DNA from: Chrysochromulina tobinii
Lineage: Eukaryota; Haptophyta; Prymnesiales; Chrysochromulinaceae
DNA: 43,662 nt
NCBI GenBank assembly: GCA_001275005.1
Contig: JWZX01002781.1
Coordinates: forward strand, 1-43,662
Direction of reading: 5' to 3'
Shown piece by piece: positions 41,487 through 43,662 of this stretch (positions are counted from its first letter, which is position 1; each line of letters starts with the position of its first letter). The notes below the pieces were generated by a model, which had not been told where the DNA came from, made no database searches, and saw nothing but the letters and a program-made list of their open reading frames with translations. The translations under genes were made by a program, and so were the position numbers.

Positions 41487-43662
41487 TCACTCAAACTGGA
41501 CGCGCGCGTGCAGATGCCGCGCCGCGGCGGCGTCGCCCGGGCGCGCGCCAACGTACCGATGCGCGTACACCATGCGCGGGTGCTGCCGGCGCACGGCGAC
41601 AGCCTGCCCCCCGCCCGCGCCCGTGAGCCGGCGCGGCAGCCAGCGAAGCTCGGGCATCGTATGGTTGGCGGCCGTCGGCTCCCAGAGCGGCGACGCGTCC
41701 CGGTAGGCTCCAAAGCGCGGGTGGACTGTCTGGCCGTAAAAGTCGGAGCCGCGCCGCTTGAGCCACTCGCCCACCGCGTCGCTCAGCCTCGCGCCCACGC
41801 CGAAGCCCTGGAACTCGGGCAGCACGACTGTGCGGTGCGCGCGCTGTGGCCGATCGGTCGCCTCGCTCGTCGGCTTGCCTGAGTGAGGGATGGTCGCCAA
41901 TCAAAGAGGCAATCAATGGTCATCAGCGACGCTCGCAACGGCTTGCCTGAGTGAGGGATGGTCGCCACGAACCCCGCGGGCACGTACACGCTCGCCTCGT
42001 CCTCCGCGTCGTGGCGAGCGTCCTCCGCGTCGCGAGCCACCGCCTCGGCGTCGTGGTGAGCGTCCTCCGCGTCCGCCGCCGCGGTTCCCGCCCGTGTCAC
42101 CGCCGCCTCCGCCCTCCCGCCGAGCGCCACGCGCGCCTCGAGCAGGCAGGTCGATGCGACCGTTGAGAGCTGCGCCGTCTTGTAGTGGTAGCTGTGGAAG
42201 CGCTGCCACTCGGCGGGTGCGCATGGGCGTAGCCGCAGGGCGAGCTGTGGAAAGGGGAGGCGCACGCTGCCGCCGTCGACGAGGCCGGTGGCGCCGGTGC
42301 TGGCGCCGGCGGCGGAGGGTTTGGCGGCGAGAGGGTCGCTGATGACCTTTGATTGCCTCTCGATTGCCTCTTGATTGCCTTTGTTGTCGTCGGAGGGATT
42401 GGCGGCGAGTGACGCTCGCGCGGCCGCCAGCGCTAGCCAACCACGCAAGCCCATCGCCTCGTGAGCCATCGCCTCGTGAGCCGTCGCCTCGTGAGCCGTC
42501 GCCTCGTCCATCGCCTCGTCCATCGCCTCGTGAGCCGTCGCGCCCGCTGCCGCGCCCGCTGCCGCCTTCTCCACGTCCCTCGTCGCCTCCGCCTCGGTTT
42601 CGGCGCCCTCCGCCTCAGCGCCCTCCGCCCGTGTAGCTGCCGTCGGCTGGAGCCAGAAGCACGTGGCCGAGCCCGCCTCAAAGATCCAATCGGGCTCGAG
42701 GGCACCGCGCGCCACGTGCTCAATGTGGCAGCCCGCGAGCACCACCCCGGCGCATCGCAGCAGCGACGGCCGCGCAGCCGCCCCACCAGCGCCCACGACG
42801 GCGCCGCCGGAGCCGCCGGGCTGAGCTTGAGCGGTCGAGGCCCGCAGCGCGCCGCTGAGCGCGCGGCTGATGCGCAGCGTCGTGTCGCCATCCCACGCGG
42901 AGCCAAACTCGTCAAAGAGGGCGAGCCGCGCGCCTGATCGCTCGTCGTCCCCCGCCTCGTCCCCGTCCCCTTTGGCCGGCTCGGCCGCGCCGATCTCCAA
43001 GGCCAGCAGCGCCTGGGCACGCTCGCCGCTCGAGCACGCGCCGTACCGCCACGCGAGCGCCGACGGCAGCGGCGCGGCCACCGCACGCAGGCAGCGCGCC
43101 GCTTGCTCGGAGCTGCCAAAGGCGTCGCTCAGTCGGCGAGCGCGCCGCCAGGCGGCGCTCAAGACGGCGCTCCCGTCGAGGGCGGCTCGACCGAATTGGG
43201 CAGCGAGCAGTGCGGACTTGGCCGCGCCCGACGGGCCGGTCAGCACACCAAGGCGGAAGGGGCCGAGCGCGTCGCGGCTCGGGAAGGGCGGCAGCCGGCG
43301 CGCGCAGGTGCCGTCGCTCGGCAGGTCGAAGAAGGTCTCGACGATGCGCGTCGCCTCGGTCGCCTCGACGTGCGCCGCGAGCACGCGCCCGCCCCGCGGC
43401 GGCGGCGCGCACGCGTCGTGCTGAGCGGGAGGCGTGACGTCGTGGCAGAGGGCATCAGAGACCATCAAAGGCACTCAGGGGTACTACTCAGAAGTCATCA
43501 GTGCTCATCACCTGGAAGGGAGGCGCGTCGTCGTAGCAGCGCTGGGAGAGCACCCGTAGGCCACACCGGCGGAGGCTCGCGAGGAAGAGCTCGCCGCCGC
43601 GGGGGAGGTGCGATGGGGGGAGGTGCGATGGGGGGAGGTGCGATGGCGGGAGGTGCGATGGG
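41487..43662 (-). CDS. ABC-type ATPase fused to GNAT acetyltransferase, 5' end outside window
   Basis: Resembles the prokaryotic/phage group described as ABC-type ATPase fused to a predicted acetyltransferase (COG2401-like). Exons: 43662-43512 (partial), 43420-41947 and 41878-41487. ATPase part: Walker A LTGPSGAAKSALL (usual GxGKS reads GAAKS), a signature-like YGACSSGERAQALLALEIG, Walker B LALFDEFGSAWD, and an H-loop segment LAGCHIEH followed by LEPDWIFE. A low-complexity acidic/Ala insert follows. GNAT part: EWQRFHSYHYKTAQLS, GFVATIPHSGKP and, after splicing, RAHRTVVLPEFQGFGVG (acetyl-CoA-binding Q-x-x-G-x-G) with a FYGQTVHPRFGAYRDASPLW end. The GC-AG intron 41879-41946 (68 bp) is needed to keep the GNAT frame. 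The N-terminal region is cut by the window edge. Confidence 0.8.
41879..41946 (-). other. GC-AG intron bounded by a 29-bp direct repeat (68 bp)
   Basis: Donor CAG|GCAAGC and acceptor CTCACTCAG|GCAAGC. The 29-bp sequence at 41871-41899 recurs exactly at 41939-41967, so both junctions read the same. Interior filler: CTGATGACCATTGATTGCCT. Removing 68 bp restores the GNAT frame (phase 1). Confidence 0.8.
42313..42409 (+). repeat. antisense filler insert between 19-bp direct repeats, in the ABC/GNAT coding region
   Basis: Direct repeats 42313-42331 and 42391-42409 (one mismatch) bracket a segment that on the plus strand reads CGCTGATGACCTTTGATTGC and continues with GATTGCCTC units. On the gene strand the 78-bp step keeps the frame and encodes a DDNKGNQEAIERQSKVISDP segment. 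Confidence 0.75.
43421..43511 (-). repeat. ABC/GNAT intron, 10-bp repeat intron (91 bp)
   Basis: Donor TTCCAG|GTGATGAGCACTGAT and acceptor CGCTCAG|CACGAC, phase 0. The interior has CTGAGTAG, CTGAGTGCCT and CTGATGCCCT units. The first 15 nt equal those of TypA intron 3. Confidence 0.8.
43603..43662. repeat. 15-bp tandem repeat at the window edge
   Basis: Four copies of GGGAGGTGCGATGGG (one variant). On the minus strand they could encode SHLPP repeats in frame with the ABC/GNAT exon, or be intronic; the cut edge leaves this open. Confidence 0.85.

Follow-up and report, generated by a model that had tools for sequence, protein, structure and literature searches.

How new spliceosomal introns originate is an old question, for which fresh footprints are scarce. 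The window analysed here (43,662 nt, contig C1623 of an assembly of 53,154,812 bases in 2253 contigs) contains a gene in which a 29-bp sequence recurs exactly at short distance, and an initial annotation had read this pair as the trace of a recent intron gain. Two questions were raised by the locus: whether the repeats bound an intron, and by which route such an intron could have been gained. The genome matched profiles of the light-harvesting family (58 matches) and of a Prp8 domain (one match), and was therefore taken to be that of a photosynthetic eukaryote with a spliceosome.

A predicted GC-AG intron in an ATPase-GNAT-like gene

The features of the gene are collected in Table 1. The exact repeat described in the initial annotation was recovered; its copies lie 68 bp apart, start to start. 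The window was shuffled 20 times under a first-order Markov model; at spacings of 40-200 bp, the longest exact direct repeats in the shuffles measured 11-14 bp. Repeat length alone does not make the pair unique, because the window has 13 direct-repeat pairs of at least 20 bp at 40-200 bp spacing, the 29-bp pair included, and most of the others were read, from the tandem-repeat table, as coding or filler tandem repeats. The pair is distinguished by content that is unique, by a spacing not divisible by three and by the intron filler that separates the copies. A query of 161 bp from the locus had a single match in the genome, the locus itself. The exact motif GTCGCTGATGACCNTTGATTGCC, from the middle of the insert, was present at two genomic sites among the matches listed, both in the ATPase-GNAT gene.

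Table 1. Coordinates of the repeats, insertions, introns and exons of the ATPase-GNAT-like gene
Feature	Position	Strand	Basis
Repeat copy, 29 bp, upstream in gene sense; predicted donor CAG|GCAAGC	41939..41967	-	Exact match to 41871-41899
Repeat copy, 29 bp, downstream; predicted acceptor CTCAG|GCA	41871..41899	-	Exact match; phage protein alignments span the junction
Inserted filler, 39 bp	41900..41938	-	Related decamer filler at other loci
Predicted GC-AG intron, 68 bp, GCAAGC..ACTCAG	41879..41946	-	GY..AG solution joining both copies exactly
Exon preceding the intron: weakly ATPase-like part, linker, start of GNAT	41947..43420	-	Open frame, translation
Putative GT-AG intron, 91 bp, setting the predicted 5' end of exon 41947..43420	43421-43511	-	Predicted from sequence only
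Last exon, GNAT part; stop TGA at 41491-41493	41491..41878	-	Frame, phage alignments
Second filler insertion, filler antisense to the gene	42310..42409	+	22-bp repeats 42310-42331 and 42388-42409 around 56 bp

Because the gene is read from the minus strand, the donor copy is the one with the higher coordinates. Frame-restoring GY..AG pairs of at least 30 bp were listed (22 pairs), and only the 68-bp pair joined both repeat copies exactly; at the predicted spliced junction CAG is joined to GCAAGCCG, with 68 bp removed. GC-AG introns have the consensus donor AG|GCAAG and a YAG acceptor, with a branch-like motif upstream and no AG between motif and acceptor. The predicted intron agrees with this consensus in its donor (CAG|GCAAGC), its acceptor (ACTCAG|GCA), its YTRAY motifs and its AG-free stretch up to the acceptor. 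Three YTRAY branch-like motifs are present in the intron (A at 44, 34 and 22 nt from the 3' splice site), against none in 490 bp of exon of the same gene, and the closest AG upstream of the acceptor is at 53 nt, that is, none lies between a branch-like motif and the acceptor. Both predicted splice sites fall inside the repeat and the usual filler tail is absent; the sequence of both copies fits the proposal that an AGGC motif within the repeat would supply both sites.

If the 68 bp are left unspliced, reading exits the GNAT frame and meets the stop that ends a 563-aa open frame. The joined protein reads VYVPAGFVATIPHSG/KPTSEATDRPQRAHRTVVLPEFQG across the predicted junction. It was aligned with a protein of Aeromonas phage AsFcp_2 (42/124 identical) and with one of Vibrio phage vB_VmeM-32 (43/140 identical), and both alignments span the junction uninterrupted, in agreement with the 68-bp GC-AG intron and the restored frame predicted earlier. 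In the AsFcp_2 protein GFVSILP stands opposite GFVATIP, so that the repeated sequence, in its first part at least, appears to be exonic in origin. The assignment of the GNAT frame rests on phage records. Eight records, from Aeromonas, Tenacibaculum and Vibrio phages, were matched in the phage collection by the ATPase-GNAT-like gene (41491-43420), and the two phages that were checked belong to the Straboviridae. No relative was found in the prokaryote genomes scanned with the GNAT protein, and Pfam matches of the joined GNAT part were below the cut-offs (best E 0.0015; 19.3 bits vs 27). The repeat copies are identical at 29/29 positions, which is consistent with the young event proposed before; as judged from these data, the predicted intron and its youth are well supported.

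The initial annotation had put first, as the mechanism, a tandem exon duplication in which an AGGC motif would provide both splice sites; in a simple duplication of this kind the intron would be wholly exon-derived. The AG|GC in the repeat and the exact join are as such a duplication would leave them, but the 39-bp middle is no copy of the flanking exon (the repeat search returned the 29-bp repeat only). It carries intron filler, as had been noticed, with related decamers at other loci, where like filler is set between long, unrelated exonic repeats. Tandem exon duplication alone is therefore very improbable, and insertion with a long target-site duplication, which had been named as the alternative, is the better fit. 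The window intron is probably a young insertion of this kind.

The steps of such an insertion can be proposed as follows. A short piece of intron-type filler would have been inserted in the ATPase-GNAT exon, with duplication of 29 bp of the target. CAG|GCAAGC of the first repeat copy would then serve as donor and the second copy as acceptor, and the filler would provide CTGAT/TTGAT branch sites, 22-44 nt before the acceptor. Splicing in vivo would take out the filler and precisely one copy of the repeat, leaving the protein unchanged and the insertion tolerated. The decamer unit contains CTGAY, and the filler may for this reason act as a portable branch site. We consider it likely that the entry of filler into the exon brought a long duplication of the target, the splice sites being supplied by the duplicated exon and the branch sites by the filler.

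The second filler insertion in the gene (Table 1) is flanked by repeats that are 20/22 identical. It adds 78 bp in frame and without a stop, and is therefore read as 26 extra codons. Its filler has 28/30 bp in common with that of the window intron, in inverted orientation. The element suggests that such an insertion can arise and persist without splicing or sense orientation.

Filler tracts and flanking repeats in the genome

Filler tracts are runs of units of about 10 bp, such as TCTGATTGCC and TCTGATGACC, rich in CTGAT/TTGAT; the end of the insert is often TCCCTCATCAG. Loci amounting to about 0.28 Mb of the 53 Mb were sampled, mostly chosen for filler or tandem hits. Two reduced sets of loci were used in several counts: set A, with L040, L001-L003, L010 and L013 left out, and set B, with L054-L073 left out as well. 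Contigs L039 (C235) and L040 (C101) are 99.87% identical over 5975 bp and may be alleles, duplicates or redundant assembly.

The two flanks of each tract were compared. A match score of at least 20 was reached in 106/274 tracts with usable flanks (near-identical L039 and L040 both in; overlapping L001-L003, L010 and L013 out), against 3.4 expected from mismatched pairs, much of the DNA behind these tracts having been picked for filler or tandem hits (13/20 stretches of one batch). In the least selected subset, composed of the window and seven arbitrarily picked contigs (C50, C200, C300, C400, C500, C600 and C700), a score of at least 16 was reached in 8/21 tracts.

Repeat pairs around filler were surveyed in set A. 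The survey returned 129 pairs, and 64 had non-intron flanks by filter: 10 of the tail form described below, 19 with AG|GY inside the repeat and 35 with no exact splice solution by rule. Several of the 19 do not look like introns when read; mismatches account for some of the 35, and others are unexplained. AGGY was mildly over-represented in such repeats (14/54, vs 15% expected). Of 12 introns whose acceptor falls in the repeat, seven have an extra AG downstream of the last branch-like motif and before the acceptor; the window intron belongs to the other five. Tract orientation (set B, n = 267) was sense in 155, antisense in two and undetermined in 110; antisense tracts are thus rare under a rule that depends on tails in the vicinity. 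The antisense element of the window itself is not one of the two.

Two further arrangements of repeat and filler can be proposed. In a common form, the tail form, the repeat starts at G|GT, and the copy of the following exon would give the donor and the filler tail TCCCTCATCA plus G the acceptor. The acceptor in this form would consist of the tail CATCA and the G that precedes the GT of the repeat, the donor being that GT in the first copy. In the mirror form, the preceding exon would be duplicated and its AG would become the acceptor; five examples were found, two in L044 and one each in L005, L007 and L050.

Introns defined by the tail were compared with the exon that follows them. A sample of 20 was chosen by the exact tail only (first-listed hits, one per contig, C139 skipped). 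Nine open with a copy of the next exon whose start falls within the first three bases of that exon (score at least 18), and 12 reach a score of at least 14, one of them (L066) through filler only, against 10/380 mismatched pairs. Among 112 tail-defined introns (set A, with those of the 20-intron sample that passed the filter), a copy of the following exon stands at the start of 49 at a score of at least 12, against 0.83 expected from mismatched pairs. The other 63/112 have no duplication at this threshold, for which decay could be the reason. The non-intron-flank filter was passed by 30 rows, two of them from one array in L032, with a median duplication of 28 bp; duplications measured 12-42 bp (median 23.5 bp) in the 26 rows that are not array-like and 56-60 bp in the four that are. 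G immediately precedes the repeat in 25/30 rows, and intron lengths are divided 12, 9 and 9 by frame.

The exact 19-bp tail TGATTGCCTCCCTCATCAG is followed genome-wide by GT at 590 sites, GC at 120, GA or GG at 63 and a base other than G at 106 (tandem arrays included, so that the counts are not independent). The baseline after any CAG in the sampled DNA (set B) is 6.2% for GT and 7.6% for GC. We know of no general requirement for GT or GC at exon starts; an excess of this sort after the tail would follow from a donor that is a duplicated exon start, and an origin by duplication would account for the frequent GT or GC starts of the exons behind these introns. As GC makes up 120/710 of the GY, a GC donor like that of the window intron is unremarkable in this genome. 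In a 13-mer search (set A), a piece of its own next exon was present in 54/121 tail introns. 13-mers of the next exon were also found in introns of other loci (329 pairs), and the 15 pairs displayed were all filler or tail.

An assembly error, through repeat expansion or a misjoin, is conceivable in a draft of this many contigs, but a unit of 68 bp is short, and its arrangement is found again at many loci with copies that are often mismatched, unlike the prediction for misassembly; we regard such an error as most improbable. By sequence comparison, the window intron is not an isolated curiosity: the same anatomy recurs across the genome, and there is strong support for placing the window intron in a recurring class of intron insertions with long duplications. 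In many introns here the duplicated exon letters are still recognisable, and the empty site, the limits of the insert and the relative age can be read from them.

Tandem arrays were observed in L032, L035, L019, L022 and contig C1185 (10243-10497). Their units, which recur every 39 to about 80 bp, combine a copy of the exon with filler or are made up of filler and its tail. The arrays look as if introns grow through repeated duplication.

Source of the filler and route of insertion

A Lon gene (L036, minus strand) has several filler introns in succession. Its peptides, assembled by eye from the reading frames and joined at AG|GT, were compared with solved Lon proteases. The match covers query residues 2-92 (91 residues), is gap-free in the two alignments shown and crosses two predicted junctions (best E 1e-31; 32 sequences matched). 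The repeat at one of these junctions is 28/28 identical, and one Lon exon end carries the donor AAG|GTAACG. One Lon intron has a 40-bp duplication (37/40) that ends in CCGATTAC, and CCGATTAC there matches the intron's own exon. The last 42 nt of this intron, with CCGATTAC inside, are also present in two neighbouring introns (42/42 and 39/42). On the simplest reading, the two neighbours would have been copied from the intron with the 40-bp duplication; an 8-bp microhomology is the alternative for the shared CCGATTAC.

Sharing of filler within and between loci was then counted. A common run of at least 25 bp was found in 28/955 pairs of tracts within loci and in 404/37,016 between loci (L039 and L040 both giving within-locus pairs; L001-L003, L010, L013 and L054-L073 out). 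Rare 16-mers present in exactly two tracts (set B) gave 13 pairs within loci and 141 between, or 8.4% within loci vs 2.6% expected. These sequence comparisons lend modest support to local copying of filler across the sampled loci.

The related contigs L027 (C968) and L033 (C1932) were considered as a pair differing in the presence of an intron and were rejected, the difference being a larger deletion. Their gene copies are about 90% identical over 2.2 kb, and one lacks a stretch that takes in part of an intron together with the exon that follows.

Retroposition, in which excised intron RNA would be reverse transcribed at a nick (target-primed), predicts a fixed 3' end, 5' truncation and variable target duplications. 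In copies of the tail form, a set selected by the tail, TCCCTCATCA or a sequence close to it does abut G|GT and the opposite end is variable, and two Lon introns resemble 5'-truncated copies of a third, but neither the window intron nor the mirror form has the tail at the 3' junction, and the second element of the window is antisense. This route is unlikely, if still worth keeping in mind. A non-autonomous DNA transposon, or introner, with unusually long target duplications would be in line with the high copy number of one tail (590 exact copies with GT) and with the co-option of splice sites described for introners in the available text of PMC9860276. The length of the duplication varies, however, from 12 to 42 bp, and no common 5' end was seen by eye in the 30 filtered rows; we hold a transposon to be improbable.

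For insertion with a long target duplication, we infer that the DNA step was most likely either the repair of a break with a wide stagger or template switching in which a piece of an existing intron was copied. It is proposed, tentatively and with some doubt, that new introns form in the alga when fragments of introns already present, often those of the same gene, are copied into exons, with 12-42 bp of target copied again and the decamers acting as portable branch sites. If this is true, almost any fragment beside a duplicated AG|GY would work as an intron immediately.

Comparison with known systems of intron gain

Introners, as described in the available text of PMC9860276, have target duplications of 3-9 bp in previously characterised families and of 4 bp in a Chrysochromulina example. 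They are like the present class in that repeated intron sequences occur at many sites of one genome; near-identical intron sequence is found at many sites in the class as a whole, and the window intron has the decamers and not the tail. They are also alike in taking splice sites partly or wholly from the target, the window intron appearing to take both from the duplicated sequence. They differ in the duplications, which are variable here (12-42 bp; 29 bp in the window, and so outside the 3-9 bp range), and in the low-complexity decamer core of the present introns.

Intron gain by repair of staggered double-strand breaks in Daphnia leaves direct repeats of 4-12 bp from the adjacent exon (PMC4202315, in the portion available). 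In both systems a direct repeat of the adjacent exon is found at the opposite end of the new intron; at the present locus, exon-derived direct repeats stand at both intron ends. Here the repeats are longer than the 4-12 bp of Daphnia, and the inserts share one kind of filler.

Tandem genomic duplication with AGGT has been put forward as a route of intron gain (PMC3443670), with a case in potato (PMC4974935). As far as the accessible parts of these two papers go, the likeness lies in a duplicated AG|GY that forms both splice sites and in the exact join. The difference is that the intron in that route is the duplicated exon segment itself, whereas the window has AGGC and an insert of 39 bp of non-exonic filler.

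In titles and abstract openings, with few subscription journals covered, no report of duplications of about 30 bp around introns was found, which is weak evidence of absence. Duplications in the cited papers, as far as their available text extends, measure 3-12 bp, and set against these the long-duplication insertion is a new variant of intron gain of the introner and break-repair kind.
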